In this document: positions 2,348 to 49,980 of the stretch, one piece after another | How the letters are laid out: each line of letters begins with the position of its first letter | Position numbering within the stretch: position 1 is the stretch's first letter | NCBI RefSeq assembly: GCF_014647375.1 | Contig: NZ_BMPB01000007.1 | Span: forward strand, 248,001-312,000 | Length of the DNA: 64,000 bases | DNA from: Parabacteroides faecis | GTDB lineage: Bacteria > Bacteroidota > Bacteroidia > Bacteroidales > Tannerellaceae | Direction of reading: 5' to 3' | The notes under the pieces: model-generated | What the model saw: only the letters and a program-made list of their open reading frames with translations | Databases searched by the model: none | What the model was told of the DNA's origin: nothing | Position numbers and translations under genes: made by a program

Positions 2348-2454
2348 TCCAAAATGCATGCCAAAACATTAAACAATTATATACCAACACATTACCTCGC
2401 AACCATCAAAAAACAATGTCTAATAATTAGACACTATTGTCAAATTATTAGACA
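2348..2454 (-). promoter_or_regulatory. Sigma-54 promoter and paired RR1 enhancer sites for A1
   Basis: The minus-strand promoter at 2348-2363 reads TGGCATGCATTTTGGA: -24 and -12 elements with correct spacing but GG where GC is usual. Predicted start is near 2337. Upstream are two 17-bp palindromes, 2417-2433 (TGTCTAATAATTAGACA, perfect) and 2438-2454 (TGTCAAATTATTAGACA), with centres 21 bp apart. The start-to-start distance from promoter to proximal site is 69 bp. RR1 as the binding protein is inferred from its neighbouring gene and from recurrence of the same arrangement. Confidence 0.8.
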
Positions 2455-2499
2455 TTGAAACGGGGTATGGTAAAATATCAGCTATTCAGCCTTCTATTT

Positions 2500-4857
2500 T
2501 TATTCCGATTTCAAACTATTCACGGGATTGGTACTGGCAGTTCTCCAGCTTTGGAAAGTCACCGTACCAATGGTTATTACCAATACAATCGCCAGTGCCA
2601 GCAGAAAAACCCACCAATATATCGGAGTTTTATAGGCAAAACTTTCCAGCCATTTTTTAATGCCGTAATAAGCGAGAGGCACAGACAACGCAAAACATAG
2701 CAGGACAATATAGATATACGAACGGTTCAACATCTCCAATATCTCACGAATAGTTGCACCATGTACCTTGCGGATACCGATCTCTTTCCGGCGGTATTGG
2801 GTGTCGAACACAACCAGTCCAAAAACTCCTACCAGCGATATAATGATAGCCAGTAGACTGAAAACGGTAATCAGACTGCGCAGATTTTCTTCCTTATGAT
2901 ACAATTCGTTGAATACCGCATCATAGAATTCTATATCGACCGGATAAGCAGGATCTATATCTGCCATTGTTTTCCGAATATGGGATACGGCGTCATTGAT
3001 GTTTGTACCGGCTTTCAGACGAATATAGGAAACAGTCAACGGGTATGGCATCCCGGTCACGAAACCGATATTATTCTCTCCTTTTCGAAGGGACGTAAAC
3101 TTCACATCACCCACCAGCCCTACAATAGTACCAGAAGCCCACGATTCCAGCTTATCGCCTGCTTCTATATTTACTGCCTGTTTCGCATTACGGTTAAAGA
3201 TATACGAAGGAGTCTCCGATAATTCATCTGCCGGAAAAAAATCACGTCCTTCCTCCATCGGGATTCCCATGACACGAAGGAAGTTTTCCGAAACGAAGAT
3301 CATGAAAAACCGCAGGTCATTATTCTTTATAGAACAACTATTCGTGCTATATCCGTCCTGCGAACCCACCTTTTCCAAAGAGAACGCCACATCTTCGATA
3401 CCGGAAAACTCTTTCAGACGGTTGACATATGTTTCGTGCGACTTCACATATATATCGCTGCTCAGACTGACAATAGCAATCTGGTCCTTATCGAACCCCA
3501 ATGAATAGTCACGCATATAACTATTTTGTAAACGGACAAAACAAGCCCCGATGATCAACAGTATGGAAACGATATATTGAACTCCGATCAATACTGTCCG
3601 TAATTTTCTCCCGGACGGAGAAAGACCGAAACTTCCTTTTAAGACTAAAGCAGGAGGGAAAGAGGTTACATACCACGAAGGATATAGACCTGCGATAATC
3701 CCCGTAACAAGCGCGACTACTCCCGTCAGTAACACGATCGGTAGATTATCCGGTATATTCAGATTTGCTTCGATAAACGGCAGTGTCCCGGCAGAACCGA
3801 GCAAATAAACGATGAACAGGCTGACAAGCCATGCAAACAGGCTGATTATAGCCGCTTCGATCAGCAGTGCCCTGCGTAATACATTATCCGGACTTCCCAG
3901 TACTTTCTGAGTATTGATACTTTTAATACGCATCGGCGTTAGCGATGTATTGAAATTCGTGAAATTAATGCCAGCCACAACGATGATCAACAAGGCAATA
4001 AAGAACAATAATATAGAGACCTCTTTATTTCCGCTACGAAAAATCGTGCCATCCTGACTCTCATTCATATAATAAACGCTTGTCAACGGAGTCAGCCTGA
4101 TGTGTACATCCTCTTTTTTGTTTATTTTGGAGAAGTCAAAATTTGCATTGAAATTATCAACTACGGTCTGTACCGATCCGGGATTATCCAACAACAGATA
4201 ACAAACATAATTACTAGCTTTAAAATTATCCCGCTGGTAGGTTTCACCAATAGCCGTATAGATCAGATTACGCATCTGGGTATTACCGGGAAAATCCTTA
4301 TAGACCGCTCCAACCGTATACTCGCGGTTATCTTTCGACTCCACATCTTCTTCTGCATGAATCGCCTTTCCTACAGCCGGTTGGTCACCAAACATCTTAC
4401 GTGCTATGCTTTCCGGCAGAATCACTTTCTCAGGATCATTCAGGCAATCACGGTCTCCTTCAATGATCGGAAAATCGAAAACCTTGGTTATATCCGGATG
4501 GCAGGTTTGTACCAGTTCCCGGTAACCGACTTTCTTTCCGTCCTCCACTACTGAAAAATAAATAGCCGGGTTATAGGGATAAATCAGGGTGCCTGCTTCA
4601 ATATGGGGTGATGACTGGATAACCGACTCTACAAAAGCCCGGGGCATGATCAGACCAAAAGTCCCTGCCTCCGTCAGTTCCATACGAAAGACCCGATCAG
4701 CTGTCGGATGGCACCGGTCAAAGCTACGTTCGTAATTCACCTGTATCAGAATGACGATAAAAGCTGCAAAAGCTACAGCCAGTCCGGCCACATTCAAAAA
4801 GGTTGCCATCCTGAACCGGCGTAATACACTCAGAAAGTTTCTTAGTATTGTTTTCAT
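2500..4857 (-). CDS. MacB/FtsX-like ABC transporter permease, class A copy 2 (A2)
   Basis: A 785-aa protein from the ATG at 4857. The same frame extends upstream to 4932, but that extension would run through the sigma-54 promoter (4883-4898) and past the predicted start near 4872, and every paralogue begins at MKT. Predicted segments: TM1 about 18-39; periplasmic domain about 40-272; TM2 about 273-296 ending in INFTNFNTS; coupling motif MRIKSINTQKVLGS near 305-317; TM3-TM5 to about 437 with the conserved loop ALVLKGSFGLSPSGRKLR; second periplasmic domain to about 663; TM6, motif RRKEIGIRKVHGAT, TM7 and TM8. Two FtsX-type cores in one chain suggest one polypeptide could pair with an ATPase dimer, as LolC plus LolE do together. 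Single-gene unit with its own promoter. Substrate unknown. Confidence 0.92.
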   Translation of the reverse strand: MKTILRNFLSVLRRFRMATFLNVAGLAVAFAAFIVILIQVNYERSFDRCHPTADRVFRMELTEAGTFGLIMPRAFVESVIQSSPHIEAGTLIYPYNPAIYFSVVEDGKKVGYRELVQTCHPDITKVFDFPIIEGDRDCLNDPEKVILPESIARKMFGDQPAVGKAIHAEEDVESKDNREYTVGAVYKDFPGNTQMRNLIYTAIGETYQRDNFKASNYVCYLLLDNPGSVQTVVDNFNANFDFSKINKKEDVHIRLTPLTSVYYMNESQDGTIFRSGNKEVSILLFFIALLIIVVAGINFTNFNTSLTPMRIKSINTQKVLGSPDNVLRRALLIEAAIISLFAWLVSLFIVYLLGSAGTLPFIEANLNIPDNLPIVLLTGVVALVTGIIAGLYPSWYVTSFPPALVLKGSFGLSPSGRKLRTVLIGVQYIVSILLIIGACFVRLQNSYMRDYSLGFDKDQIAIVSLSSDIYVKSHETYVNRLKEFSGIEDVAFSLEKVGSQDGYSTNSCSIKNNDLRFFMIFVSENFLRVMGIPMEEGRDFFPADELSETPSYIFNRNAKQAVNIEAGDKLESWASGTIVGLVGDVKFTSLRKGENNIGFVTGMPYPLTVSYIRLKAGTNINDAVSHIRKTMADIDPAYPVDIEFYDAVFNELYHKEENLRSLITVFSLLAIIISLVGVFGLVVFDTQYRRKEIGIRKVHGATIREILEMLNRSYIYIVLLCFALSVPLAYYGIKKWLESFAYKTPIYWWVFLLALAIVLVITIGTVTFQSWRTASTNPVNSLKSE

Positions 4858-4882
4858 TATTGTTGATGTTTTACTTCCATCA

Positions 4883-4989
4883 CTCAAATTACATGCCAAA
4901 ACTAAAACCGACTGTGTATAAGAAGATTGCATATCACCCCTTAAAAAACAATGTCTAATAATTAGACACTTATGTATAATTATTAGACA
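4883..4989 (-). promoter_or_regulatory. Sigma-54 promoter and paired RR1 enhancer sites for A2
   Basis: The minus-strand promoter at 4883-4898 reads TGGCATGTAATTTGAG, with predicted start near 4872 and a leader of about 15 nt. The paired palindromes are 4952-4968 (TGTCTAATAATTAGACA) and 4973-4989 (TGTATAATTATTAGACA), 21 bp apart. The register to the promoter is 69 bp, as for A1. The distal site ends 24 bp beyond the A3 stop codon. Confidence 0.83.
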
Positions 4990-5013
4990 TTGAAACGAAT
5001 AAAAGAAGCAGTG

Positions 5014-7389
5014 TTATTCAGACTTTATGCTCTCAACCGGATTGGAGTTCGCTACATGCCAGTTCTGGAAAGTGACCGTAACGAAAGTAATAACAGAGAT
5101 AATAACAAAAGCCAGCAGGAATACCCACCAATACATCGGTGTACGGTAAGCGAAGTTTTCCAGCCAACGGTACATACCATAGAAAGCGACCGGAGTAGCC
5201 AGCACAAAACAAGCGGCAAGGATGATCAGGTAGCTTCTGTTGAACATGACCAGTATCTGGGAAGTAGACGATCCCAACACTTTACGGACAGCCACCTCTT
5301 TCCGGCGGTACTCGCTCTCGAATACAACCAGGCCAAATACCCCGACAATGGAGATAAAGATCGCAATAACGCTGAACAGAGTGATCAGGTTGCTGATCTT
5401 CAATTCCCTTTCGTATGTCTGCTGCAGGATCTCGTCATAGAATGTAGTTTTGAAAGGATAAATCGGATCTATCTTTGTTAAACAGGCTCGCACATGTTTC
5501 ATAGCCGCCCGCAAGTCACTGCCTGCCTTTACTTTTACATAGGCAGCTGCGTAATATTTACTGTCGACCTCCCGTCCCCAATAGTGCTTTCCCCATACAT
5601 AAAAAGTCATCGGCGACACTTCATTACGGAAAGAGGCGAACTTGACATTCGAAATGAAACCGATGATCTCATCGCCATCGATCTTCTCTCCCAGTTCCAG
5701 ATTATACATCTCCCGGGCTTTCTCATTAAAAATATAGCTCCCGTTTTCTTTCAAATCATCTTCGGGGCGGAAATCACGACCGTCTGTTATCTCGATTCCC
5801 ATGACACGCAGGAAAGAGGGAGAAACAGGGATACACTGGAAATTGATATCCTGGTCTTTGTACATACGTCCCCATCCCATATAAAAGTCACGGCTGGACA
5901 GAACCTGTTCCGCATAAGTGATATCTTCTATTCCCGAGAATGACTTCACCTCGCTGGTCAGGACTTCCTGGTTTTTATTGACTTTACTGTTCAATTCAAC
6001 CACGATCAGTTCGTCTTTATCATATCCCAAGGGGGTATTTTGCATATACCGGTTCTGTAAATACATGAACAGAGAACTGATGATCAGGATAAATGAAGCG
6101 ACAAACTGGATACTTATCAGTGCACTTCGAAGTACCCGCCCTTTCGGAGACAAACCAAAACTGCCTTTCAACACCAACGCCGGAGGGAAAGAAGTGATAT
6201 AACAAGCCGGATAAATACCCGCTAATACACCTACCGCCACAGCTATGGCAGCTGTAGTCATAATGATACCCGACTGTGCCGAAAAAGACATGTCAGCATC
6301 TACCAGAGATGCGACAAAAGTCTGCCCGGCAATAAATAACAAACCCAGCGAAATAAGATAAGCCACGATACTCACAATGACAGCTTCTCCCAACAAACTC
6401 GTCCGGAGCACGCTATCGGGACTACCCAACACTTTCTGCGTATTGATACTCTTGATACGCATCGGGGTCAGAGCGGTACTGAAATTAGTAAAGTTAATAC
6501 CGGCTATCAATAGGATGACAAAAGCGATCGCAAACAGTACATGCATCGTCTGCCGGCTGGCTTTCGGCATGGAATCGAAAGAGACATTCGTCAGGAAATG
6601 TAACTTAGGCAGCGGTGTCATCATCAGCTCGATGCCGTCTTTCTCCCACTTGAAATCTTTTCCGAATTGCTGGGAGGCATCGAAATTCTTTTTGAAGTTT
6701 TCTTTGACAACTTCTAAGTTGGACGGATCGTCCAGACGAAAGAAAAAGAAATAATTCTGGTTGCCATACTCATTGTAATTTTCTTTATCGGACATTTGCC
6801 GGTAAATTATATTCCGGACAGACGAGTTACGGGGGAAGTCTTTAAAGACACCGCTGATCGTAGCCAGTGTATTTTCGGATTCCACACTCATCAGACGTTT
6901 ACCTATGGCCGATTCATTTCCGAAGAGGCGGCGTGCCATACTCTCAGGGATCATAACTGTTTCCGGCTGATCCAGGGCAGTCTCGTTCCCTTCCACCATA
7001 TCAAAATGAAAAACACGGGTAATCCCGGATGTTGCATTTACAACGGGATCCTTGAAGTTCTGTCTTTCTCCTCCCCGATCTACGCTATAAAACAGCTCGG
7101 AATTCCAGGAAGACATAATCATTCCGGCTTTTACATGCGGGGATGATTCTGTAAATCCTCTTGCAAAAGGACGGCTAATAACAGCACTCATGCTACCTTG
7201 AAAATCCATATCCATCCGATAGATCGAATTGGCTTCCGGCTGGCAGGAGTCGAAATTGTTGTCGTAATTTACCTGCATCATGATCACCATAAAAGCGGTA
7301 AAAGCGATGCTTAATCCTAACACATTCAGAAGTGTCGCCATTTTAAAACGGCGAAGCACGCTGACAAAATTTCTAAAAAGAGTTTTCAT
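5014..7389 (-). CDS. MacB/FtsX-like ABC transporter permease, class A copy 3 (A3)
   Basis: A 791-aa protein starting MKTLFRNFVSVLRRFKMATLLNVLGLS. The class A plan is intact, with INFTNFSTALTPMRIKSINTQKVLGS in the first FtsX core and RRKEVAVRKVLGSSTS in the second. Its first periplasmic domain resembles A5 and A6 (shared SRPxA segment and a P..SRQT segment before TM2) more than A1, A2 or A7, so class A has at least two periplasmic subtypes. It follows A4 after an 89-bp gap in which I see no sigma-54 promoter or palindrome pair, so it is probably co-transcribed with A4. Substrate unknown. Confidence 0.92.
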   Translation of the reverse strand: MKTLFRNFVSVLRRFKMATLLNVLGLSIAFTAFMVIMMQVNYDNNFDSCQPEANSIYRMDMDFQGSMSAVISRPFARGFTESSPHVKAGMIMSSWNSELFYSVDRGGERQNFKDPVVNATSGITRVFHFDMVEGNETALDQPETVMIPESMARRLFGNESAIGKRLMSVESENTLATISGVFKDFPRNSSVRNIIYRQMSDKENYNEYGNQNYFFFFRLDDPSNLEVVKENFKKNFDASQQFGKDFKWEKDGIELMMTPLPKLHFLTNVSFDSMPKASRQTMHVLFAIAFVILLIAGINFTNFSTALTPMRIKSINTQKVLGSPDSVLRTSLLGEAVIVSIVAYLISLGLLFIAGQTFVASLVDADMSFSAQSGIIMTTAAIAVAVGVLAGIYPACYITSFPPALVLKGSFGLSPKGRVLRSALISIQFVASFILIISSLFMYLQNRYMQNTPLGYDKDELIVVELNSKVNKNQEVLTSEVKSFSGIEDITYAEQVLSSRDFYMGWGRMYKDQDINFQCIPVSPSFLRVMGIEITDGRDFRPEDDLKENGSYIFNEKAREMYNLELGEKIDGDEIIGFISNVKFASFRNEVSPMTFYVWGKHYWGREVDSKYYAAAYVKVKAGSDLRAAMKHVRACLTKIDPIYPFKTTFYDEILQQTYERELKISNLITLFSVIAIFISIVGVFGLVVFESEYRRKEVAVRKVLGSSTSQILVMFNRSYLIILAACFVLATPVAFYGMYRWLENFAYRTPMYWWVFLLAFVIISVITFVTVTFQNWHVANSNPVESIKSE

Positions 7390-7478: not shown

Positions 7479-9836
7479 TCATTCTGTTTTTATACTTTCT
7501 ACCGGATTTTCGCTGGCTGTACTCCAATTTTGGAACGAAACAATCAGGATCGTGATAGCTGAAACAAAAATAAAGGCAATTGCATACACCCACCAATACA
7601 AAGGTATCTTATAGGCAAAATATGACAGCCACCGGTTCATTGCATAATAAGCAACAGGTATCGACAGGATGAAACAAATTACCAAAATACGCGCATATAC
7701 TTTATTGAACATAATCAATATCTGTGAGGTAGTTGCACCATGTACTTTTCGGAGACCTATTTCTTTTCTCTTATACTCACTTTCGAAGATCACTAAGCCC
7801 AAAACCCCTACTATCGAAATAAAAACAGCTACCAGACTGAACAGGGAGATCAGCCAACCGATACTCAATTCACGTTTATAAAGATTATTCAGGATCGTAT
7901 CATAAAACGATACCTCGACCGGAAAATCCTTGTCTACCGAAGTAAACACTTTTCCAATGGAGGCAATGGCTTCGCGGATATTGGCTCCGGCTTTTATCTT
8001 TATATAGGCATATCTCGGATGAAAATCCTTCTCAGCCGGTACATAAAAAGCCATCGGTTCGATAGTGGTACGGAAAGAAGCATACTTTACATCATCTATA
8101 AAACCGGCGATCACGGCAGGAGGTACTTCAACATAAGCATTTCCTGTAATATATTCACCTGCCACCAGGTCATACTGCAACCTGGCTGTTTCATTAAAGA
8201 TATAAGCTCCTCCTGCCGATGCTGCATCTTCCTGGTAAAAAGCACGACCGGATATAACCGGAATATTCATTACCTGAAGGAAATTAGGATCAACTGTGAA
8301 TAATTTGAATGTTAGATCATTGCTTCTGTAGCCCCGTCCAAAAGTAGAATATTGATCCCCTCCTGACAATAAATCTTCGGCAAAAGCCACCTCTTGTATA
8401 GACGACTCATTCTTTAACTGGCTTTCCAATGTTCCTGTATTCTTTATCAACTTCCCGTTCAACTCAACAATAGCAACCTGATCTTTATCAAAACCTAAGG
8501 AGGAAGCAACCATGTAACGATTCTGCAAATAAATAAACAAAGCGGCTATGATCAATGCAAAAGAGATGACAAACTGGAAAGAAATAAGAAGACTTCTTAA
8601 TTTTCTTCCGGCAGGAGTCAACCCGTATGAGCCTTTCAACACCAATGCCGGAGAAAAAGAAGTGATACGCCAGGCAGGATATACCCCCGCTAAAACTCCC
8701 ACTGTTATGGTCAATATCCCCGTCAATGCCAACAAAGGAATATTGGAAGCCAACGACATATCTCCACTTATCATATCTGCAAGCCAGGTATTCCCCATTC
8801 CCCTTACAATAAACAGCGATATGATAAAAGAGACCAGACAGATTAGTACCGCCTCTACCAGCATAGCACAACGTAATACTTTATCAGAACCTCCCAGTAT
8901 TTTCTGCGTATTAATACTACGGACACGTATCGGGACCAACGCATTACTGAAATTTGTAAAATTGATACCGGCAATGAACAATATCAATATAGCGACTGTA
9001 AATAAAACCAATACCAACGTACGATTACCCTTATCTTTCAGCGAATCAAATTGCGAATCCGCTTCGTAATAAATATCAGTTAATCGGGTTAGTCTTACAT
9101 CACGTGTTTTCCAGTCGTACTCTTGTCTGTTTAAATGTTCTTTAAAATTTGCTATTATCTCATCTTTTTTATCGGGATTGTCCAATAAAACATATAACTG
9201 ATAACCATTCGCATTCCAGTTATCCTGATCTACTTTTCCATTGATTCTCCAATATACAGCATTCTGTATCACGGAATTTGCCGGAAAATCTTTATATACG
9301 CCACCGACTGTAAAAGATAAATTATTATCCTTCAAAATTTTACCCACAGCCTGGTCGTTCCCAAATATTTTTTGCGCATAACTCATCGGTATCAGAACAG
9401 TACCCGGATTATTTATGCTCTCTACATTACCTTCCAACATCCGGAAATCAAAAATAGTCGCATATTCAGGTGTCATGGCATTTACCATACACCAAAAACC
9501 GACATCATCATTCTTTCCGGTTTCCGCCTTTAGCGTTAAGCGGCTTCCACTGGAAAAAAGCAATGCTCCTTTCTCTATATGAGGAGACGATTGAATAAAA
9601 GCATTGGCAAAAGGAGGAGATACGATTACCTGATTTCCCCAGTCCGGCGTATAAAGTCCTACCCTGAAAATCCGTTCCGCATTTTTCTGATACCTGTCGA
9701 ATCCCCAGTCATATTGCAGCTGGATCATTAAAATTATAAAAGCTGCAAAGGCAACACTAAGCCCCAATACATTCAACAGGGTTGCCACCTTAAACCGACG
9801 AACTACTCCCAACAGATTTCTAATAATTGTTTTCAT
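7479..9836 (-). CDS. MacB/FtsX-like ABC transporter permease, class A copy 4 (A4)
   Basis: A 785-aa protein starting MKTIIRNLLGVVRRFKVATLLNVLGLS. It is the most divergent class A copy. The coupling motif reads VRSINTQKILGGSDKVLR rather than IKSINTQKVLGS, and the conserved loop is ALVLKGSYGLTPAGRKLR. The second core has KRKEIGLRKVHGATTSQIL. Its first periplasmic domain fits neither the A1/A2/A7 nor the A3/A5/A6 subtype. First gene of the unit A4-A3, driven by the sigma-54 promoter at 9919-9934 with a leader of about 72 nt, among the longest in the set. Confidence 0.92.
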   Translation of the reverse strand: MKTIIRNLLGVVRRFKVATLLNVLGLSVAFAAFIILMIQLQYDWGFDRYQKNAERIFRVGLYTPDWGNQVIVSPPFANAFIQSSPHIEKGALLFSSGSRLTLKAETGKNDDVGFWCMVNAMTPEYATIFDFRMLEGNVESINNPGTVLIPMSYAQKIFGNDQAVGKILKDNNLSFTVGGVYKDFPANSVIQNAVYWRINGKVDQDNWNANGYQLYVLLDNPDKKDEIIANFKEHLNRQEYDWKTRDVRLTRLTDIYYEADSQFDSLKDKGNRTLVLVLFTVAILILFIAGINFTNFSNALVPIRVRSINTQKILGGSDKVLRCAMLVEAVLICLVSFIISLFIVRGMGNTWLADMISGDMSLASNIPLLALTGILTITVGVLAGVYPAWRITSFSPALVLKGSYGLTPAGRKLRSLLISFQFVISFALIIAALFIYLQNRYMVASSLGFDKDQVAIVELNGKLIKNTGTLESQLKNESSIQEVAFAEDLLSGGDQYSTFGRGYRSNDLTFKLFTVDPNFLQVMNIPVISGRAFYQEDAASAGGAYIFNETARLQYDLVAGEYITGNAYVEVPPAVIAGFIDDVKYASFRTTIEPMAFYVPAEKDFHPRYAYIKIKAGANIREAIASIGKVFTSVDKDFPVEVSFYDTILNNLYKRELSIGWLISLFSLVAVFISIVGVLGLVIFESEYKRKEIGLRKVHGATTSQILIMFNKVYARILVICFILSIPVAYYAMNRWLSYFAYKIPLYWWVYAIAFIFVSAITILIVSFQNWSTASENPVESIKTE

Positions 9837-9918: not shown

Positions 9919-10026
9919 TTCAAATAATGTGCCAAAGACATAAATATGTAGAAAACAAGGCGTTGCTTATGCAACGCCTTGTCGGAGGTGTCCAATATTT
10001 AGACACAGGTGTATAATTATTAGACA
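9919..10026 (-). promoter_or_regulatory. Sigma-54 promoter and paired RR1 enhancer sites for A4-A3
   Basis: The minus-strand promoter at 9919-9934 reads TGGCACATTATTTGAA, with predicted start near 9908. Palindromes are at 9989-10005 (TGTCCAATATTTAGACA) and 10010-10026 (TGTATAATTATTAGACA), 21 bp apart, register 70 bp. An intrinsic terminator (9956-9981) for the preceding A5 transcript sits between the enhancer pair and the promoter. Confidence 0.85.
9956..9981 (-). terminator. Intrinsic terminator after A5
   Basis: An 11-bp perfect stem (CAAGGCGTTGC / GCAACGCCTTG) with a TTAT loop, followed on the minus strand by TTTTC. It lies downstream of the A5 stop (10046), inside the enhancer-promoter spacer of A4. 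Confidence 0.75.
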
Positions 10027-10045: not shown

Positions 10046-12436
10046 CTAATTATCTTTTATGCTATATACCGGATTCTCATTTGCTGTCCGCCAGTTCTGA
10101 AAAGTCACTGTCAGGATCGTGATAAAGAAAATCAGAGCGAAAGACAAGGCGAATACCCACCAGTAAACCGGAGTTTTATAAGCAAAGTTTTCCAGCCATT
10201 TATTGACAGCATAATAGGCTGCCGGAGCTGCCAGTACAAAACAAACTGCCAGAATACGTATGTATGTTTTATTGAACATGATCAGGATTTGAGAAGTAGT
10301 CGAACCCAATACTTTACGGACACCTATTTCCTTCCGACGATACTGGCTGTCGAACACGACCAGACCGAAAACCCCGACCATCGAGATAAAGACAGCGATC
10401 AGGCTGAACAGGGTAATCAATGCACCCAGGTTTGTCTCCTTCTCATACAAATTATTCAGTACATCATCGAAGAAGCGGACATCGAAAGGATAATCCGATT
10501 GGATTTCACTCAACACCTTTTTTACATGCTCCATAGCAGCCAACTTGTCCGTTCCGGCTCCCACACGGATGTAGCCGAAGGTGGATTGTTCGTTACGGCT
10601 GGTTCCGGGTACGTAAAAGGCCATCGGCGTAACCTCCATACGGAAAGAGGCCGCTTTAATATCGGGGCAGAAACCGACAATTTCCGCTCCGTAGATTTTG
10701 TCACCCAACTGAATATCGTAGGCTTTCCGGGCTGATTCGTTGAAAACGTAGACACCCTCTGCCGTCAAGGCATCTTCGGGACGGAAGTCACGTCCTTCAT
10801 TGACCGGGATACCTAATACCTGAAGGAAAGAGGGATCGACCGGCAGACATTGATACTGGATGTGCTTACCATTCAACTCACGTCCCCAGGTCGAATACTG
10901 GTCCTGTCCCGACAACTGAAATCCTGCTGCAGTCACATCCTCGATACCGGAGAAAGACTTCAGACGATTCTTGAAAGAATCCTTATTTTTCATAACTTTA
11001 GCAGTCAGGTCGGTCACGATAATTTCATCTTTGTCATATCCCAAGGAACTTGTCCGCATGTAGTTGTTTTGCATATACATAAACATGGCCCCGATGATCA
11101 AAGCAAACGAAGCGATGAACTGTACGCTGATCAGTACATTCCGCAGCAACCGTCCTTTAGGAGAAAGTCCGAAACTACCCTTCAACACCAGGGCTGGTGA
11201 GAAAGAGGTAATATAGTAAGCCGGATAAAGTCCTGCCAACACACCAAGCAGGATGGCAAGCACGCCGGTTACGCTAATCAATACCGGATGAGCCGTCAAC
11301 GAGAGATCAGCTCCGACCAATGCCTTGAGTGGAGTATCAGCAGCCAGATAGACAGCCACCAGTGCCAATATAAATGCGATGAAACTGATACCGACCGCTT
11401 CCATCAATAGAGAGAAACGCAAGGTACTATCGGAACTTCCCAATACTTTCTGTGTATTGATGCTCCTGATACGCATCGGCGTGAGTGCCGTACTGAAATT
11501 GGTGAAATTGATTCCTGCAATAAGTATAATCACACAGGCAATAGCGATAAGCACCAACAGCGTCTGCCGACTCGTTTTAGGAGCCATATCGAAGGCTACA
11601 TCCGTTACGTAATGCAGTTCCGGCAATGGGGTCAACTGGAAATTCGCAGTTTTGTTTCCCCACATATTTTTCTCCAGATCGTTTTTCTTGTAATAATCCA
11701 GAAACTCGCTAACCAGATTTTCAGCCGATGCAGGACTGTCCAGAAGTAGATAGGCATTGTAACTGGAGTTTCCCCAGTCATGCAATCCTTCTTTATCATC
11801 TATTTTCAGATAGACAGCATTCTGAAGGATACCGTTCACGGGAAAATCGCGGTAAACCCCTCCTACCGTATAATCGATCTCGGCAATGGTAAACATTCCC
11901 GAAAAGCGTCCTTGTGTATCTGCCGCTTTCATATGACGACCGACGGCAAACTCCGTACCGAATATCTTCTGTGCCATGCTGGCCGGAATCAATATCTTCT
12001 CGGGATCTTCCAGAGCCTTTGCCGAACCATCCAGCATATCGAAAGTAAACACATCGGCAAATGAAGAATAGACCGGCAAATTCGGTTCCATATAGCTGAC
12101 CCGCTCTCCTGTGCCCACATCGGCCAGAAAAACCGTTTGGCTGTACATCGGATAAGTCAGCGCACCGGCAACAATATGCGGTGAGAAATTGAAAAACGCA
12201 TCCGCCAACGGCCTGGAGAGAACTGCTTGTAAACCATCATCATCGCCCCACTTCATTTCCAGCCGGTAAATCCGGTTGGCCTCTTTATGGAATTTATCGA
12301 AATTCCTGTCATAATCGACCTGCATCATGATTACCATAAAGGCTGCAAAAGCAATGCTCAGTCCCAATACATTCAACAGTGTCGCCATTTTAAACCGGCG
12401 CAATACACTTAACAAGTTTCTAATAATAGTCTTCAT
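10046..12436 (-). CDS. MacB/FtsX-like ABC transporter permease, class A copy 5 (A5)
   Basis: A 796-aa protein, the longest of the complete copies, starting MKTIIRNLLSVLRRFKMATLLNVLGLS. First core INFTNFSTALTPMRIRSINTQKVLGSS, second core RRKEIGVRKVLGSTTSQILIMFN. By eye it is nearest to A6: same MQVDYD junction after TM1, similar YY(I/M)TSFSPALVLKGSFGLSP loop, and the same C-terminal NPVYSIKDN. A5 and A6 also share the layout of their downstream terminator and next promoter. Probably a single-gene transcription unit with its own sigma-54 promoter and terminator. Confidence 0.92.
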   Translation of the reverse strand: MKTIIRNLLSVLRRFKMATLLNVLGLSIAFAAFMVIMMQVDYDRNFDKFHKEANRIYRLEMKWGDDDGLQAVLSRPLADAFFNFSPHIVAGALTYPMYSQTVFLADVGTGERVSYMEPNLPVYSSFADVFTFDMLDGSAKALEDPEKILIPASMAQKIFGTEFAVGRHMKAADTQGRFSGMFTIAEIDYTVGGVYRDFPVNGILQNAVYLKIDDKEGLHDWGNSSYNAYLLLDSPASAENLVSEFLDYYKKNDLEKNMWGNKTANFQLTPLPELHYVTDVAFDMAPKTSRQTLLVLIAIACVIILIAGINFTNFSTALTPMRIRSINTQKVLGSSDSTLRFSLLMEAVGISFIAFILALVAVYLAADTPLKALVGADLSLTAHPVLISVTGVLAILLGVLAGLYPAYYITSFSPALVLKGSFGLSPKGRLLRNVLISVQFIASFALIIGAMFMYMQNNYMRTSSLGYDKDEIIVTDLTAKVMKNKDSFKNRLKSFSGIEDVTAAGFQLSGQDQYSTWGRELNGKHIQYQCLPVDPSFLQVLGIPVNEGRDFRPEDALTAEGVYVFNESARKAYDIQLGDKIYGAEIVGFCPDIKAASFRMEVTPMAFYVPGTSRNEQSTFGYIRVGAGTDKLAAMEHVKKVLSEIQSDYPFDVRFFDDVLNNLYEKETNLGALITLFSLIAVFISMVGVFGLVVFDSQYRRKEIGVRKVLGSTTSQILIMFNKTYIRILAVCFVLAAPAAYYAVNKWLENFAYKTPVYWWVFALSFALIFFITILTVTFQNWRTANENPVYSIKDN

Positions 12437-12468: not shown

Positions 12469-12577
12469 TTCAAATACTGTGCCAAAAGAGATAAGCCAAT
12501 AATAAACAAGGCGTTATAAATATAACGCCTTGCCGGATGTGTCTAATATTTGGACACTGATGTATAATAATTAGACA
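12469..12577 (-). promoter_or_regulatory. Sigma-54 promoter and paired RR1 enhancer sites for A5
   Basis: The minus-strand promoter at 12469-12484 reads TGGCACAGTATTTGAA, with start near 12458 and a leader of about 22 nt. Palindromes are at 12540-12556 (TGTCTAATATTTGGACA) and 12561-12577 (TGTATAATAATTAGACA), 21 bp apart, register 71 bp. A terminator hairpin (12507-12532) lies between enhancers and promoter. Confidence 0.85.
12507..12532 (-). terminator. Intrinsic terminator after A6 (end of A7-B2-B1-A6 operon)
   Basis: A 12-bp perfect stem (CAAGGCGTTATA / TATAACGCCTTG) with a 2-nt loop as written. Its U tract is weak on the minus strand (TTTATTATTGG). Position and the CAAGGCGTT arm match the terminator at 9956-9981, so the two regions probably duplicated with their genes. 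Confidence 0.65.
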
Positions 12578-22225: not shown

Positions 22226-22334
22226 TTCAAATTACGTGCCAAAAACAATAAACGGCTATCTATCAAACATATAAAGAAATACAGATATTCAGGACATGTC
22301 AAATTATTGGACAGTCCTGTCTAGTTTTTTTACA
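22226..22334 (-). promoter_or_regulatory. Sigma-54 promoter and paired RR1 enhancer sites for A7-B2-B1-A6
   Basis: The minus-strand promoter at 22226-22241 reads TGGCACGTAATTTGAA, with start near 22215 and a leader of about 34 nt. The proximal palindrome is 22297-22313 (TGTCAAATTATTGGACA). The distal site 22318-22334 (TGTCTAGTTTTTTTACA) is degenerate in one half but keeps the 21-bp offset. The register is 71 bp. The same degenerate distal sequence occurs at the ATPase operon (28458-28474). Confidence 0.82.
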
Positions 22335-22369
22335 TCGTAAAGCATTCCTCTCCAAGATATTCATTATTC

Positions 22370-22749: not shown

Positions 22750-22786
22750 TATTTTGTTTTTCCTATGGGGAAAAGTCATTCGTTCT

Positions 22787-28365: not shown

Positions 28366-28474
28366 TTCAAAATACGTGCCAAACTTAATAATTTACTGAT
28401 ATTCAAACCTATAGATTTTATTCTTTTTTCGAAGAGTGTCTAATATTTAGACACTCATGTCTAGTTTTTTTACA
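28366..28474 (-). promoter_or_regulatory. Sigma-54 promoter and paired RR1 enhancer sites for ATPase-B4-B3
   Basis: The minus-strand promoter at 28366-28381 reads TGGCACGTATTTTGAA, with start near 28355 and a leader of about 59 nt. Palindromes are at 28437-28453 (TGTCTAATATTTAGACA) and 28458-28474 (TGTCTAGTTTTTTTACA, degenerate), 21 bp apart, register 71 bp. The distal site ends 17 bp from the B5 stop. Confidence 0.83.
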
Positions 28475-30881: not shown

Positions 30882-30990
30882 ACCAAATAGTGTGCCAAAA
30901 CGAACAATCATCTGATATACAAGAAAAAGAGTCAGACAGAATTCAAAGAAAATGTCAAATTATTAGACAGTGGTGTAAATTAATTAGACA
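30882..30990 (-). promoter_or_regulatory. Sigma-54 promoter and paired RR1 enhancer sites for B5
   Basis: The minus-strand promoter at 30882-30897 reads TGGCACACTATTTGGT, with start near 30871 and a leader of about 50 nt. Palindromes are at 30953-30969 (TGTCAAATTATTAGACA) and 30974-30990 (TGTAAATTAATTAGACA), 21 bp apart, register 71 bp. Confidence 0.82.
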
Positions 30991-31568: not shown

Positions 31569-31583
31569 ACCATTATTTATTAA

Positions 31584-32171: not shown

Positions 32172-32175
32172 ACTT

Positions 32176-32670: not shown

Positions 32671-32734
32671 TCTATTATAAAGACAATCGTGAAAAGAAAA
32701 CATAACATGATCAGAAAGAAAAAATGCAATTTAA

Positions 32735-40412: not shown

Positions 40413-40521
40413 GGCAAAGACTGTGCCAAACCATTTAAAGAATTATTTATCAACACATTGACAAAACAAGTATTTTCTCAAAGTGTAAAAAAATTAGACA
40501 ATGGTGTATAAATATTAGACA
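40413..40521 (-). promoter_or_regulatory. Sigma-54 promoter and paired RR1 enhancer sites for the TolC1 operon
   Basis: The minus-strand promoter at 40413-40428 reads TGGCACAGTCTTTGCC, one of the best matches to the sigma-54 consensus here, with start near 40402 and a leader of about 17 nt. Palindromes are at 40484-40500 (TGTAAAAAAATTAGACA) and 40505-40521 (TGTATAAATATTAGACA), 21 bp apart, register 71 bp. Confidence 0.85.
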
Positions 40522-40556: not shown

Positions 40557-40573
40557 TGTCTAAATATTAGACA
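40557..40573 (+). promoter_or_regulatory. Single RR1-type palindrome at the RR1 promoter (candidate autoregulatory site)
   Basis: TGTCTAAATATTAGACA, a near-perfect RR1-type palindrome, lies just upstream of the probable -33 region of the RR1 gene. Unlike the nine other loci it has no partner 21 bp away on either side. Placement suggests self-control of RR1 (inference). Confidence 0.7.
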
Positions 40574-40634: not shown

Positions 40635-41987
40635 ATGGCTAAACAAGGCACCATACTGGTCGTGGACGACAATAAGGGGATTCTTACCGCAGTACAGATG
40701 CTGTTAGGCACCTGCTTTGAGAAAGTGATAACCATCTCTACCCCGAATAAAATAAAGACAACCCTGCACAATGAAGACGTGGACGTTGTTTTACTCGATA
40801 TGAACTTCAGTGCCGGGATCAATACCGGCAATGAAGGACTTTTCTGGCTTTCTGAAATAAAGAAGGAAGACCCGTCGGTACAGGTAGTTCTTTTTACCGC
40901 TTATGCCGACATAGACCTGGCAGTAAGGGGGATCAAGGAGGGGGCTACCGACTTCGTTGTCAAACCCTGGAATAATGCCAAACTGCTGGAAACACTGAAA
41001 ACGGCTTATGATATCCGGACAGCGAATAGGAAAGGGATTCCTCATGAAAGTAACAAGCAGGTTGTCTCCAAAGAAAGCGGTATGTTCTGGGGCGAAAGCA
41101 ATGCAATGCAACAACTCCGCAACCTGATCGAAAAAGTAGCTAAAACAGATGCCAATATCCTGATCACCGGAGAGAACGGAACCGGTAAAGAAATGCTGGC
41201 CAGGGAAATACATATGTTGTCGAACCGTAAAAAGGAGGCAATGATCCCCGTAGATATGGGTGCCATTACCGAAACATTGTTCGAAAGCGAACTGTTCGGT
41301 CATATGAAAGGAGCCTTTACCGATGCACGTGCCGACCGACCGGGTAAATTCGAGGCTGCCAACAACGGAACACTTTTTCTGGATGAGATAGGAAACCTCT
41401 CCTACCATTTGCAGGCAAAACTACTGACCGCCCTACAACGCCGCAGCGTAGTGCGAGTGGGGAGCAACACGCCTATCCCGGTAAATATCCGTCTGATTTG
41501 TGCAACGAACCGCGATTTACAGGATATGGTGCAAAAAGAACTGTTCCGCGAAGACCTTCTATATCGTATCAATACGATACACGTAGAAATCCCCTCCCTC
41601 CGCGACAGACCCGAAGATATTGTACCGTTAACAGAGATATTCCTATCTAAATATTGTAATATCTACGGAAAATCTTCCATGCGCCTGAGTGCGGATGCAA
41701 AGGAAAAGTTGAAACAACAGCCCTGGTTCGGTAATATCCGCGAATTGGAGCATACGATCGAAAAGTCGGTAATCATATCGGAAGGGGAAACGCTAGACAG
41801 TTCGGATTTCGATTTTCCCCGGAAGAAAGAATCTCCGTTGAAAGAGGCTACCACACTGGAAGAAATGGAATACAACATGATCAAAAATGCCATGGATAAA
41901 TACAATGGCAATCTTTCGCTCGTTGCCAGCCAGCTGGGTATTTCACGTCAGACGCTATACAATAAAATCAAACGTTACGAATTGTAA
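40635..41987 (+). CDS. Sigma-54-dependent response regulator RR1 (NtrC/AtoC family)
   Basis: A 450-aa activator with three domains. The receiver has phosphoacceptor D55 in VVLLDMNF and covers about 1-125. The AAA+ domain (about 150-375) has Walker A GENGTGKE, the sigma-54 contact loop as GAFTDA rather than GAFTGA, Walker B GTLFLDEIGNL and an R-finger region. A Fis-type HTH at the C-terminus contains NLSLVASQLGISRQTLYNKI. HK1 begins 2 bp after its stop. The only other sigma-54 activator in the window is RR2, next to a different operator, so RR1 is the best candidate to bind the TGTCTAAT palindromes that precede the permease operons and its own gene. Confidence 0.95.
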   Translation: MAKQGTILVVDDNKGILTAVQMLLGTCFEKVITISTPNKIKTTLHNEDVDVVLLDMNFSAGINTGNEGLFWLSEIKKEDPSVQVVLFTAYADIDLAVRGIKEGATDFVVKPWNNAKLLETLKTAYDIRTANRKGIPHESNKQVVSKESGMFWGESNAMQQLRNLIEKVAKTDANILITGENGTGKEMLAREIHMLSNRKKEAMIPVDMGAITETLFESELFGHMKGAFTDARADRPGKFEAANNGTLFLDEIGNLSYHLQAKLLTALQRRSVVRVGSNTPIPVNIRLICATNRDLQDMVQKELFREDLLYRINTIHVEIPSLRDRPEDIVPLTEIFLSKYCNIYGKSSMRLSADAKEKLKQQPWFGNIRELEHTIEKSVIISEGETLDSSDFDFPRKKESPLKEATTLEEMEYNMIKNAMDKYNGNLSLVASQLGISRQTLYNKIKRYEL

Positions 41988-41989
41988 TA

Positions 41990-43306
41990 ATGTTAAAAGG
42001 CATATATCATAGTCTGACTTTCCGGCTGGGTCTGTTCGGAATATTTACCGTCTGCGGAACCTACTTCGCTATGACCCGCCAATGGGAATGGTTCATTCTC
42101 ATTCTTATCGGTTGGATCTATTCCATTCGGATGATGAGTGAACTATACAAACGCAATGCCCAAAAGGTAGCCTTCATGTTCGATGCCATCGATAACAGCG
42201 ACTATGCCTTCCAATATGCGACCCGAGGTCGTTCTTCCAATGACAAACTGGTCAGCGAATCGCTGAACCGTATCACCCAGATACTTTTCCAGGCAAAAGC
42301 TGATGCTGTCCAAAAAGAGAAGTATTATGAACTGATCATGAACTCGGTCAATACCGGCATCATCGTATTGGATGATATCGGAAATATCTACCAGAGCAAC
42401 AACGAGGCACTCCGTTTACTGGGGCTTTCCGTCTTTACCCATGTCAAACAGTTGGCTCGCATCGATGATAAACTACAGGCTACGATCGCTAATATCCTCC
42501 CGGGGGATAAACATCAGATATCATTCGTAAATGAACGCGGTACGGTCAATTTGTCTATCCGTGTATCCGAAATGACCCTCCAGGAAAAACATGTACGTAT
42601 CCTGGCAATCAACGACATCAACAGCGAACTGGATGACAAGGAAATCGATTCATGGATACGCCTGACCCGTGTACTGACACATGAGATTATGAACTCCGTC
42701 ACCCCTATCACATCACTGAGCGACACCCTGTTATCCATCCATGAAGATGCCGACAGCGAGATTCGGAACGGACTGGAAGTGATCAGTACAACCGGCAAGA
42801 GCCTGATCTCATTCGTCGAATCCTACCGCAAGTTCACTCATATCCCGACGCCTGAACCGTCGTTATTTTATGTACAGAAATTTGCCGAACGGATGATAAA
42901 TCTGGCCCGTTACCACAACAATTTCCCTAATATAACGATTAATATACATATAGAGCCGACCGACCTGATCGTTTATGCAGATGAAAAACTGATTACGCAG
43001 GTTGTACTGAACCTGCTGAAAAATGCCATGCAGGCCATCGGCAGCGAACAGCCGGACGGACAAATAGAACTGAATGCATCTTGTAACCCGGATGAATCCG
43101 TGATCATCGAGGTTAGTAACAACGGTCCCTGCATCCCGCCGGAAGAAGCGGAACATATTTTTGTCCCGTTCTTCACCACCAAAGAAGGCGGTAGCGGTAT
43201 CGGGTTATCTATCTCACGGCAGATCATGCGGCTTTCAGGCGGTAGTATCGCGTTGAAGAGCAATCCGGCAATAAACAAAACGTCATTTATTCTAACGTTC
43301 CCGTAA
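41990..43306 (+). CDS. Membrane histidine kinase HK1 with almost no periplasmic domain (NtrY-like)
   Basis: A 438-aa kinase with two TM helices at about 11-28 and 34-48 joined by only about six residues (MTRQWE). A PAS-like region (about 110-215, YYELIMNSVNTGIIVLDDIGN) follows, then the HisKA box with H231 in LTHEIMNS, and the HATPase domain with N-box LLKNAMQA, a G1 segment SNNGPCI, FVPFFTTK and GSGIGLSI. It should phosphorylate RR1. The tiny external loop cannot form a conventional sensor domain, so the signal is more likely to come from the membrane or from a transporter partner, as in intramembrane-sensing kinases (inference). Confidence 0.95.
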   Translation: MLKGIYHSLTFRLGLFGIFTVCGTYFAMTRQWEWFILILIGWIYSIRMMSELYKRNAQKVAFMFDAIDNSDYAFQYATRGRSSNDKLVSESLNRITQILFQAKADAVQKEKYYELIMNSVNTGIIVLDDIGNIYQSNNEALRLLGLSVFTHVKQLARIDDKLQATIANILPGDKHQISFVNERGTVNLSIRVSEMTLQEKHVRILAINDINSELDDKEIDSWIRLTRVLTHEIMNSVTPITSLSDTLLSIHEDADSEIRNGLEVISTTGKSLISFVESYRKFTHIPTPEPSLFYVQKFAERMINLARYHNNFPNITINIHIEPTDLIVYADEKLITQVVLNLLKNAMQAIGSEQPDGQIELNASCNPDESVIIEVSNNGPCIPPEEAEHIFVPFFTTKEGGSGIGLSISRQIMRLSGGSIALKSNPAINKTSFILTFP

Positions 43307-45350: not shown

Positions 45351-45407
45351 CAAATATAGGAAAAAACTTGTATTGCTATGCAGCGAATAAAGAAATCGCT
45401 ACCTTTG
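45351..45407. promoter_or_regulatory. Divergent housekeeping promoters of the DedA gene and glnS
   Basis: Minus strand: TATATTTG at 45351-45358, 38 bp from the DedA start. Plus strand: TACCTTTG at 45400-45407, 37 bp from the glnS start. Both match the Bacteroidota -7 consensus TAnnTTTG; the -33 elements are not distinct. Confidence 0.6.
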
Positions 45408-45443
45408 TTCCGTTAATAAAGAAATAACATATTTATAACAGAT

Positions 45444-47192: not shown

Positions 47193-47217
47193 CAATGTGC
47201 CAATTAAATTATTCCCT

Positions 47218-48660: not shown

Positions 48661-49571
48661 TGGACAGAAATCTAAAAGACTACGGTCTCCTACTTTTGAA
48701 AGGCATGGGAATGGGCGCAGCCGATGTTGTACCCGGTGTATCAGGCGGTACGATTGCCTTTATTGTTGGTATTTATGAAGAACTGATCGATTCGATCAAG
48801 AGTATCAACGGAGCAAGCCTGAAGTTACTTTTCACCGGTAAGATCGCCTCATTCTGGAAAGCGATAAATGCGAATTTCCTGTTGGCTATCGTTGCCGGCA
48901 TTGCTATCAGTATCTTTTCGCTGGCAAAGATCATTACCTGGTTGCTGGTTACGCATCCGATCCTCGTATGGGCATTCTTCTTCGGTTTAGTACTGGCTTC
49001 TACCTGGTTCGTTTCAAAAGATATCAAGCAATGGAACTGGAAAACAATACTGAGTTTTATTATCGGAGCCGTCATTGCGTACTATATAACTGTTGCCACA
49101 CCGGCAGAGACTCCGACTAATTTATTTTTCATATTCCTTTGCGGGGCCATAGCGATCTGTGCCATGATCCTTCCCGGTATTTCCGGTAGTTTTATCCTGG
49201 TCTTATTAGGGAAGTACTTCTATATTATGGAAGCGGTAAAGACTTTCAATATACCGGTCATGCTCGTATTTATCTGTGGAGCAGCCATAGGTATTACCTC
49301 TTTCTCCCGTGTACTTTCTTTTGCCTTGCGCCGGTTTCATGATACGACCATTGCGGTACTGGCCGGTTTTATGCTGGGTTCGCTGAATAAAGTATGGCCG
49401 TGGAAAGAGACGATTGAGACATATACCGACAGCCATGGAGTAATCAAACCGTTGGTGGAAGCAAATATCTTGCCCAACCAACTGGTATGGGAAGCAGTCG
49501 GATTAATGATCTTCGGATTCGCTATCGTCTATTTTCTTGAAAAATTATCCATGAAAGGAGCTAAAGCTTAA
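48660..49571 (+). CDS. DUF368 family polyprenyl-phosphate translocase-like protein
   Basis: A 303-aa multipass membrane protein. The N-terminal DUF368 signature is MGMGAADVVPGVSGGTIAFI, and the internal repeat AMILPGISGSFILVLLGKYF has the paired re-entrant look of the family. DUF368 (PopT) proteins have been shown to help recycle undecaprenyl phosphate across the inner membrane (family knowledge). Its start overlaps the TPR stop. Its stop is directly abutted by the inverted terminator of the opposite-strand RNA at 49569-49607. Confidence 0.93.
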   Translation: MDRNLKDYGLLLLKGMGMGAADVVPGVSGGTIAFIVGIYEELIDSIKSINGASLKLLFTGKIASFWKAINANFLLAIVAGIAISIFSLAKIITWLLVTHPILVWAFFFGLVLASTWFVSKDIKQWNWKTILSFIIGAVIAYYITVATPAETPTNLFFIFLCGAIAICAMILPGISGSFILVLLGKYFYIMEAVKTFNIPVMLVFICGAAIGITSFSRVLSFALRRFHDTTIAVLAGFMLGSLNKVWPWKETIETYTDSHGVIKPLVEANILPNQLVWEAVGLMIFGFAIVYFLEKLSMKGAKA

Positions 49572-49607
49572 AAAAATCTCTTCCCTATGCTCACGCACAA
49601 GGAAGAG
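49569..49607 (-). terminator. Strong intrinsic terminator of the predicted small RNA
   Basis: Minus strand: stem CTCTTCC / GGAAGAG (49601-49607 with 49578-49584) continuing through TGTGC / GCATA to a GTGA tetraloop, then a run of seven T (complement of 49570-49576). Orientation is clear from the T tract. It touches the DUF368 stop codon on the other strand. Confidence 0.85.
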
Positions 49608-49727
49608 TTTGTTCTCTCGCCAAAGAGAACCTCATCAATTATGTTAACCTTATTCAAGGTCATAGAAGGGAGCAGTTCGCCAGAGTTGCTCCCTTCATGT
49701 TGAAAACACACATATTCTTAGTATTGT

Positions 49728-49811
49728 TTATCTTTTCACCTTATTTATTAGCAAATAACATGCCAGAATCGTATCTATCTGATAATTAGAAACATTGAAT
49801 AAACCAGACAT
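49728..49811 (-). CDS. Possible 27-aa small protein inside the sigma-54 transcript
   Basis: An ATG at 49811 opens 27 codons (begins MSGLFNVSNY, ends INKVKR) before TAA. It contains a hydrophobic stretch ILACYLLI followed by a basic tail, which could associate with a membrane. There is no clear ribosome-binding site, and a frame this short can arise by chance. It lies between the 5' hairpin and the 3' hairpin cluster. Confidence 0.2.
   Translation of the reverse strand: MSGLFNVSNYQIDTILACYLLINKVKR
49750..49765 (-). promoter_or_regulatory. Second sigma-54-like motif within the small RNA locus
   Basis: TGGCATGTTATTTGCT on the minus strand fits TGGCAy-N5-TTGCw well and would start an RNA of about 170 nt near 49739. 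It lacks an enhancer pair at the usual 71-bp register; the nearest pair is 193 bp upstream. It may be a secondary promoter or chance. Confidence 0.4.
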
Positions 49812-49871
49812 ATCCGATAGTGGACAGTTGCCCGGTTTTGCTTATTGTATATCCGGCAACGCCATTTATAT

Positions 49872-49980
49872 TGCAAATGGCGTGCCAAAATATACAAACA
49901 CCTATTTATCAAACATATAAACATTATACACAAATCCTAATATGTCCAATTATTAGACACTGATGTACAAAATTTAGACA
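49872..49980 (-). promoter_or_regulatory. Sigma-54 promoter and paired RR1 enhancer sites with no large gene downstream
   Basis: The minus-strand promoter at 49872-49887 reads TGGCACGCCATTTGCA, an excellent match, with predicted start 49861. Palindromes are at 49943-49959 (TGTCCAATTATTAGACA) and 49964-49980 (TGTACAAAATTTAGACA), 21 bp apart, register 71 bp, identical to most of the permease operons. The distal site ends 4 bp from the ABC-2 permease stop. Confidence 0.83.

Follow-up and report, generated by a model that had tools for sequence, protein, structure and literature searches.

What holds nine sigma-54-type promoters of one bacterial genome at a nearly constant distance from their enhancers, and which regulator do they serve? 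The question arises from a 64,000-nucleotide stretch of the 6.66-Mb genome of Parabacteroides faecis (contig NZ_BMPB01000007.1, positions 248,001 to 312,000; G000:C7:248001-312000 in our genome set), here called the window, in which a first-pass annotation had described a sigma-54 regulon of nine loci and had pointed to an adjacent response regulator gene, RR1, as the source of its activator. The annotation missed an element that resembles a binding site for integration host factor (IHF) in the spacer between enhancer and promoter, the sharing of the register by promoters of other activators, and the spread of the predicted regulon across the genus.

Nine Modules with One Register

All nine modules were found on the minus strand, each consisting of two TGT-N11-ACA palindromes followed by a promoter with an exact match to TGGCAY-N5-TTG (Table 1), in agreement with the first-pass annotation. 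The TGT-N11-ACA pattern was present in all 18 palindromes, whereas the longer 17-bp consensus that had been proposed was matched within 3 mismatches by only 15 of them. The two palindromes were offset by 21 bp in each module, as previously described for their centres. The distance from the start of the distal palindrome to the start of TGG, here called d, was 91, 91, and 92 bp in the first three modules and 93 bp in the other six, which is equal to the promoter-to-palindrome distances of 69, 69, 70, and six times 71 bp given in the annotation.

A chance origin of the modules was ruled out by shuffle and reversed-pattern controls. The window contained 17 matches to the 17-bp consensus with at most 3 mismatches, compared to a mean of 0.22 and a maximum of 3 in shuffled sequences. 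The paired-site search across the genome that the annotation had proposed was performed with TGT-N11-ACA-N4-TGT-N11-ACA and retrieved 11 places, which were the nine modules and two places on other contigs unlike the consensus; the reversed pattern had no match in the source genome. Exact matches to TGGCAY-N5-TTG numbered 12 in the window, including the nine modules, the promoters at 49752-49765 and 57155-57168, and a match at 27684-27697 on the plus strand inside the ATPase gene. It was also confirmed by eye that two of the spacers, those of the modules at 9919 and 12469, contain terminator-like hairpins. In the program-made list, the open reading frame 2500-4932 extends into its own promoter, and its start is therefore most likely the ATG at 4857.

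The Register in Related Genomes

To describe the register outside the window we used two sets of modules. The first was taken from stretches around RR1 orthologues, with the promoter sought 45 to 199 nt from the palindromes, and gave 62 distinct matches with at most 1 mismatch, the window included. Of these, 59 had distances of 91 to 94, and the other three, at 178 to 181, were second TGGCA-like promoter matches downstream of ordinary modules and were left out of the 59. One further match in the scan, at a distance of 116 and with 2 mismatches, was chance-like. The 59 spacers formed 31 clusters, and the mean pairwise identity among the cluster representatives was 39%. The standard deviation (SD) of the enhancer-promoter distance was 0.79, whereas the distance from promoter to ATG ranged from 22 to 131 (SD 18.5; 53 measurable modules) and that from the enhancer to the upstream gene from 1 to 1112 (SD 210; 58 measurable modules).

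The second, held-out set was found by the palindromes alone, without use of the promoter, and comprised 51 pairs from 40 stretches among the matches listed. A promoter-like match followed 49 of the 51 pairs, all with the full 9/9 consensus, and 48 of them were located at 91 to 94. The remaining pair, at 114, was the outer pair of a triple palindrome with an inner pair at 93. In L297 (approximately 2292-2350), three RR1-type palindromes follow one another at intervals of 21 bp. After removal of the four second readings (three at 178 to 181 and one at 114), and with L136 and L149 (offset 22) not included, the pooled data from this and related genomes comprised 106 distinct modules, with distances of 93 in 74, 92 in 17, 91 in 9, and 94 in 6 modules. 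With spacers grouped at 60% identity they form 50 clusters, all at 91 to 94.

Palindrome pairs were present in 30 of 39 Parabacteroides genomes, and the reversed-pattern control gave zero in all 39, which rules out that the module is specific to this cluster. The regulon, as predicted from these sites, is genus-wide, and in other species it is dispersed rather than confined to a single locus. When the TGT rule was dropped from the search, Rikenellaceae and Bacteroides sp. An322 proved to keep this register too; the palindrome offset was 22 in Bacteroides sp. An322 and in one Rikenella. A strict sigma-54 pattern had matches in only 2 of 80 genomes of the order, too few to bear on generality.

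RR1 as the Likely Regulator

The first-pass annotation had described RR1 as a sigma-54 activator with a Fis-type helix-turn-helix (HTH) domain adjoining one of the modules. This was borne out by the domain scan, in which PF00072, PF00158, and PF02954 all scored above cut-off, and by the position of module 8 next to RR1. The protein is 94% to 95% identical to proteins of P. gordonii and P. goldsteinii. A comparison of 36 genomes of the genus identified the palindromes in all 27 genomes with an RR1 orthologue (at least 64% identity) and in none of the 9 others, of which seven had a best match of 41% to 60% identity and two had weaker E-values; for G023 and G030 the best RR1 match had E-values of 1.7e-55 and 4.6e-57, among the matches listed. 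The source genome has one match to rpoN, at 178 bits and above cut-off. The proposal of an RR1-controlled sigma-54 regulon with a fixed register thus gains support from the 106 modules, the agreement in 36 of 36 genomes and the single rpoN, and RR1 is the likely regulator of the nine modules.

A single extra palindrome of the RR1 type was observed at 40557-40573, just upstream of the RR1 promoter-like sequence, and was kept in L017-L019 and L042. This sequence reads TTAG ... TATCTTTG and resembles a Bacteroides-type promoter. Feedback control of RR1 through the extra palindrome is possible.

The 18 loci around RR1-type genes of G001, G003, G010, G016, G017, G025, G026, G028, G029, G032, and G058 contained no palindrome pair under a looser rule. 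G001, G016, and G017 have modules elsewhere in the genome, away from the RR1-type gene.

An IHF-like Element in the Spacer

The information content of the aligned spacers revealed conserved positions within otherwise differing sequences. These positions spell the IHF consensus WATCARNNNNTTR, as stated in the passages on IHF in PMC7962754 and PMC8421141, in either orientation about one centre: YAANNNNYTGATWATCARNNNNTTR. The element starts 31 or 32 nt before TGG. Its centre is approximately 20 nt upstream of the promoter and, measured centre to centre for d = 93, lies 44 bp downstream of the proximal palindrome. The modules thus present an IHF consensus between enhancer and promoter, as in IHF-assisted sigma-54 promoters.

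Among the 31 cluster representatives, the left half matched at least 7 of 9 positions in 25 and the right half in 21, compared to maxima of 5 and 6 in shuffled sequences (1000 runs). Either half reached at least 8/9 in 25 representatives (shuffle mean 0.30, maximum 3; 1000 runs) and was perfect, at 9/9, in 13 (mean 0.02, maximum 1; 1000 runs). The best offset in the held-out spacers was -31 or -32 in 46 of 48 cases (shuffle mean 4.1, maximum 10; 500 runs). Furthermore, the two halves trade off against each other (r = -0.43), and both had at least 8 matches in only 2 of 50. According to the sections of PMC8421141 and PMC9519438 on the IHF site, its consensus is confined to one side, and two such halves about one centre would thus suit a dimer able to read either of them. 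At the modules at 9919 and 12469, the hairpin arm supplies the left half of the element.

Within the window, the element scored best at the expected place, once tied, in all 11 non-coding sigma-54 promoters, including those at 49765 and 57168, where it is present even though the palindromes differ from the RR1 type. A palindrome-like match at 49776-49792 was rejected as an RR1 site, as it falls within the IHF-like element that belongs to the 49765 promoter. At 27684, where the promoter consensus is matched exactly within the ATPase gene, the element was absent, with a score of 5/17 at its expected position. Strong copies of the 25-bp element (at most 1 mismatch) occurred at 5 places in the source genome, always more than 120 nt from any promoter-like match, and the elements of the nine modules are all weaker than these copies. 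In the source genome the element is therefore not a strong site in its own right. The IHF-like element probably explains the fixed register, as judged from its sequence and position.

The predicted bender would act like IHF, and we do not claim a named IHF. The source genome has 36 matches to the HU/IHF family above the family cut-off. One of these proteins, encoded at C15:47133, shares the RGFG of IHF-beta, and 54 of 60 genomes contain a close relative of it (E <= 1e-15); it is a candidate for the bender and no more. It lacks the Asn-Pro found at the arm tip of the other HU/IHF proteins translated.

Promoters of Other Activators

At promoters beside other activators in three genomes, the element scored best at -31 in 9 of 10, and the tenth scored 12/17 there; two pairs of these promoters were more than 60% alike, leaving 8 that are distinct. 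In a further scan, only 9 of 28 promoter matches not of the RR1 type passed the non-coding filter. Other promoters not of the RR1 type mostly agreed on the place of the element, but L134 and L212 had their best match elsewhere. The enhancers of some of these promoters follow the same register with unrelated palindromes: in the GTGCG type (four promoters), the CGTACG type (one), and the CGTCAAA type (one), the centre of the distal palindrome was located at -83 to -84, and the pairs were offset by 21, but by 23 in one. The CGTACG-type pair (L239) had a score of 0.69 and was not above shuffles (maximum 0.73), and the score of the L203 pair stands without a shuffle comparison. Five TGTYC-type promoters (L240, L241, L248, L249, and L254) do not share the -84/-63 register. 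Since promoters with unrelated palindromes share it, the register is common to several activators and not confined to RR1.

Genes Downstream of the Modules

Table 1. Predicted features of the modules, the regulator pair, and the candidate RNA. Scores of the IHF-like elements are matching positions out of 17; d is the distance in bp from the start of the distal palindrome to the start of TGG.
Feature	Position	Strand	Remarks
Module 1 enhancer	2417..2454	-	two TGT-N11-ACA palindromes, 21 bp apart; d = 91
Module 1 IHF-like element	2370..2394	-	13/17
Module 1 sigma-54 promoter	2350..2363	-	heads permease-like gene from ~2323, running off left edge
Module 2 enhancer	4952..4989	-	d = 91
Module 2 IHF-like element	4905..4929	-	13/17
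Module 2 sigma-54 promoter	4885..4898	-	heads MacB/FtsX permease 2500-4857
Module 3 enhancer	9989..10026	-	d = 92
Module 3 IHF-like element	9941..9965	-	12/17, tied with offset -46; left part is 3' arm of terminator-like hairpin
Module 3 sigma-54 promoter	9921..9934	-	heads permeases 7479-9836, 5014-7389 (predicted operon)
Module 4 enhancer	12540..12577	-	d = 93
Module 4 IHF-like element	12492..12516	-	14/17; overlaps terminator-like hairpin arm
Module 4 sigma-54 promoter	12471..12484	-	heads permease 10046-12436
Module 5 enhancer	22297..22334	-	d = 93
Module 5 IHF-like element	22249..22273	-	13/17
Module 5 sigma-54 promoter	22228..22241	-	heads permeases 19821-22181, 17453-19801, 15013-17355, 12597-14984 (predicted operon, gaps 19-97 bp)
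Module 6 enhancer	28437..28474	-	d = 93
Module 6 IHF-like element	28389..28413	-	15/17; right half 9/9
Module 6 sigma-54 promoter	28368..28381	-	heads ABC ATPase 27616-28296, permeases 25169-27496, 22787-25132 (predicted operon)
Module 7 enhancer	30953..30990	-	d = 93
Module 7 IHF-like element	30905..30929	-	13/17; right half 9/9
Module 7 sigma-54 promoter	30884..30897	-	heads permease 28491-30821
Module 8 enhancer	40484..40521	-	d = 93; between efflux operon and RR1
Module 8 IHF-like element	40436..40460	-	15/17; left half 9/9
Module 8 sigma-54 promoter	40415..40428	-	heads OEP 39045-40385, HlyD-type membrane fusion protein 37741-38991, permeases 35199-37583, 32806-35187 (predicted operon)
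RR1	40635..41987	+	receiver, sigma-54 AAA+, Fis-type HTH (domain scan); predicted activator of modules
Histidine kinase adjoining RR1	41990..43306	+	two hydrophobic N-terminal stretches, almost no loop between (by eye)
Candidate small RNA	49575..49740	-	terminator and several hairpins; reading frame not conserved (by eye)
Second sigma-54 promoter upstream of RNA	49752..49765	-	own IHF-like element 49772-49796; palindrome TGTCC-N6-GGATA (by eye)
Module 9 enhancer	49943..49980	-	d = 93
Module 9 IHF-like element	49895..49919	-	14/17
Module 9 sigma-54 promoter	49874..49887	-	heads structured RNA, no protein-coding gene downstream

The region contains 13 complete permease genes, which fall into three groups and show 19% to 70% identity over all pairwise alignments. 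The five permeases scanned all carried both the MacB_PCD (PF12704) and the FtsX (PF02687) domain, and the ABC ATPase (PF00005) is encoded by a separate gene, as in exporters of the MacB/FtsX type. An HlyD-type gene, an OEP gene, an ECF sigma factor gene, RR1, and the histidine kinase gene were also identified by the domain scan. In the window, the predicted output of the regulon is one RNA and eight transcription units that encode the permeases, the ATPase, and the exporter.

Among the 48 held-out modules, 43 head a MacB/FtsX permease, its ATPase, or an outer-membrane efflux gene: 13 are located before the ATPase, 21 before a permease of groups A, B, or C, and 9 before an OEP gene, while 4 head other genes and 1 has no open frame. 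The ATPase was 89% to 96% identical among the targets. This mix of targets, together with the conservation of the ATPase, indicates that an efflux regulon with a common ATPase is the usual output, and the regulon most likely serves an envelope or antimicrobial-stress efflux response, as suggested by its gene content. In other species, RR1-type modules were located before a serine-hydrolase-like, a small secreted, and a large outer-membrane-like protein, as classified by eye (L287, L289, and L322, near base 2300).

The candidate RNA of 166 nt had a predicted folding energy of -59.6 kcal/mol, versus -34.6 +/- 3.9 for shuffled sequences (z = -6.4). A protein-coding reading of 49575-49740 was rejected, as the frame is not kept between species (by eye). 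The 3' part of the RNA was found in 5 of 60 genomes; compensatory changes were seen in 0 of 38 pairs, and 6 of the 38 were broken in one or two of the five sequences. Rfam gave four matches in the 1501 bases at 49000-50500, none at the gathering score. By eye, the TGTCC-type palindrome of the 49765 promoter resembles those near another activator, and the second promoter (49752-49796) is present in L048 and absent from L050 and L054. As its palindrome is of another type, two signals may feed the RNA, as described for qrr1 in the text available from PMC10162802.

Several other features of the window were noted. The promoter at 57168 (region 57155-57279) heads an OEP/ABC-2 operon and has TTACCC...GGGTAA repeats, located at the same place in L048 (by eye). 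A second sigma-54 response regulator is encoded at 60976-62379. Within the permease array, 31059-32703 contains a DUF5024 gene, an uncharacterised gene, and the ECF sigma factor gene (domain scan), and the interval of approximately 450 bp that separates two permeases at 22335-22786 has no gene listed and shows repeat-like stretches by eye.

Discussion

The best explanation of these observations, which we hold with fair though not full confidence, is a switch of fixed geometry formed by RR1, a bending protein, and sigma-54, by which the efflux genes would be induced together. The neighbouring kinase would phosphorylate RR1, and RR1 dimers would bind both palindromes, one dimer each; as 21 bp is two helix turns, both would sit on the same face of the DNA. 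A dimer of the HU/IHF family would bend the DNA at the IHF-like element and fold the short spacer back, whereupon an RR1 hexamer would meet RNA polymerase-sigma-54 in one fixed geometry, over a path so short that only about 3 bp of freedom would be left. RR1 would then remodel sigma-54 through ATP hydrolysis, and the predicted result is co-induction of the MacB/FtsX-type ABC permeases, an ATPase that is probably common to them, the tripartite exporter, and the small RNA.

Several observations weigh against this explanation. RR1, like the second regulator of the window, reads GAFTDA at the position of the activator loop, which is canonically GAFTGA. Two of the 51 held-out palindrome pairs had no promoter-like match, two held-out spacers had their best match to the element away from -31/-32, and the element is degenerate in single modules, with 11 to 15 of 17 positions. 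Only 24 of 80 named RR1-type loci had a module with at most 1 mismatch in their flanks, in part owing to cut flanks and distant relatives, and no module adjoins RR1 in the lineage of G001, G016, and G017. Lastly, 0 of 9 HU/IHF proteins scanned, out of the 36 matches, reached the NCBIfam cut-offs for IHF (best 74.8 vs 111 bits).

This last result also favours the most serious competitor, namely that the spacer element is a contact for RNA polymerase, through the alpha C-terminal domain or as part of an extended sigma-54 promoter, or else a repressor site, with the distance set by direct contact between activator and polymerase. The element is indeed tied to the promoter and not to the enhancer, is AT-rich, and occurs with several unrelated activators. 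However, an AT-rich contact does not need the specific G and C positions that are conserved, and the perfect matches to the nine published IHF positions, in one orientation or the other, occur at a fixed place. Moreover, the trade-off between the halves is what is expected of one dimer that needs one good half, and we therefore consider a polymerase contact or repressor site unlikely. Much less likely still is that an AtoC/NtrC-type activator other than RR1 binds the palindromes. There are 25 matches to RR1 in the source genome at E <= 0.001, and near neighbours may read similar sites, such as CGTCAAAATATTTGACA near a 56% paralogue of G022, but the palindromes follow the RR1 orthologue throughout the genomes compared, and one module and the extra palindrome flank RR1 itself.

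The lowest probability of all, close to negligible, is given to the view that the register is fixed only because the modules copy one ancestral upstream region and have not had time to change. The permeases are paralogues, and by eye there is a resemblance between the first two spacers, which would fit such a history. Yet the register is kept across the diverged spacer clusters, in Rikenellaceae and one Bacteroides, and at promoters of other activators with unrelated palindromes, while the remaining distances at these loci vary. In view of the diverged spacers and these variable distances, we rejected recent duplication as the origin of the register.

The location of IHF between enhancer and sigma-54 promoter is described as an established arrangement in the relevant part of PMC7962754. 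The modules resemble promoters of the NtrC/NifA type in their dyad enhancers, the AAA+ activator with a Fis-type HTH, the IHF consensus in the spacer, and the -24/-12 promoter. In promoters of that type with IHF between enhancer and promoter, such as nifH and glnH, the distances vary between promoters, whereas the modules of this single regulon keep to 91 to 94 from species to species, with an IHF-type site that has two sides and a constant position. A survey of all activators of one species, as summarised in PMC4641369, located most promoters less than 100 nt from the nearest enhancer, four at more than 300 nt, and a few enhancers downstream. The regulon is thus, as far as its sequence tells, a sigma-54 activator regulon of a known kind with an unusually rigid geometry and a previously unmarked third element, for both of which we infer a function.

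Control of a small RNA by a sigma-54 response regulator, as predicted here, has been described for QseF/GlrR-glmY, where glmY and rpoE serve envelope homeostasis (PMC6075780, in part), and for LuxO/SypG-qrr1, where qrr1 is driven by two different activators; unlike glmY and qrr1, the candidate RNA of the window is preceded by two distinct sigma-54 promoters, each with its own type of palindrome. FtsX-fold permeases and a kinase nearly devoid of a periplasmic sensor are also reminiscent of the BceRS-BceAB-type modules for peptide detoxification. The response regulator of those modules is OmpR-type and works with sigma-70, whereas RR1 is an AAA+ protein predicted to work with sigma-54. Sigma-54 control of COG0577 (MacB/FtsX-type) permeases in Bacteroidia has been suggested from statistical enrichment (PMC12316311), which concerns the same kind of gene in the same bacterial class. 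The portion of that study available to us gives no activator, palindrome, register, or IHF-type element for these permeases, and its main text mentions neither IHF nor Parabacteroides. Among the top matches listed in a search of the open-licence literature by title and start of abstract, no paper dealt with the regulon or its palindromes, or with an IHF-type element at the sigma-54 promoters of Bacteroidales.

A broader reading is that the sigma-54 promoters of Parabacteroides and its relatives are rigid three-part machines, composed of paired dyads, a two-sided HU/IHF bend site, and the -24/-12 promoter, with one geometry for several activators of unrelated DNA specificity, so that a new regulon could arise by a swap of palindromes only. 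We see the case for and against this generalization as evenly balanced. Freedom of distance is a textbook property of bacterial enhancers, and about a hundred natural promoters here provide a measurable exception, as well as a natural series for probing how a short complex of activator, bender, and polymerase is built. The analysis also names a likely regulator, the targets, and a small RNA of a large predicted efflux regulon in common gut bacteria, and the search rule of a palindrome pair, an IHF-type site at -32, and a promoter may serve to assign other sigma-54 activators of the Bacteroidales to their genes.

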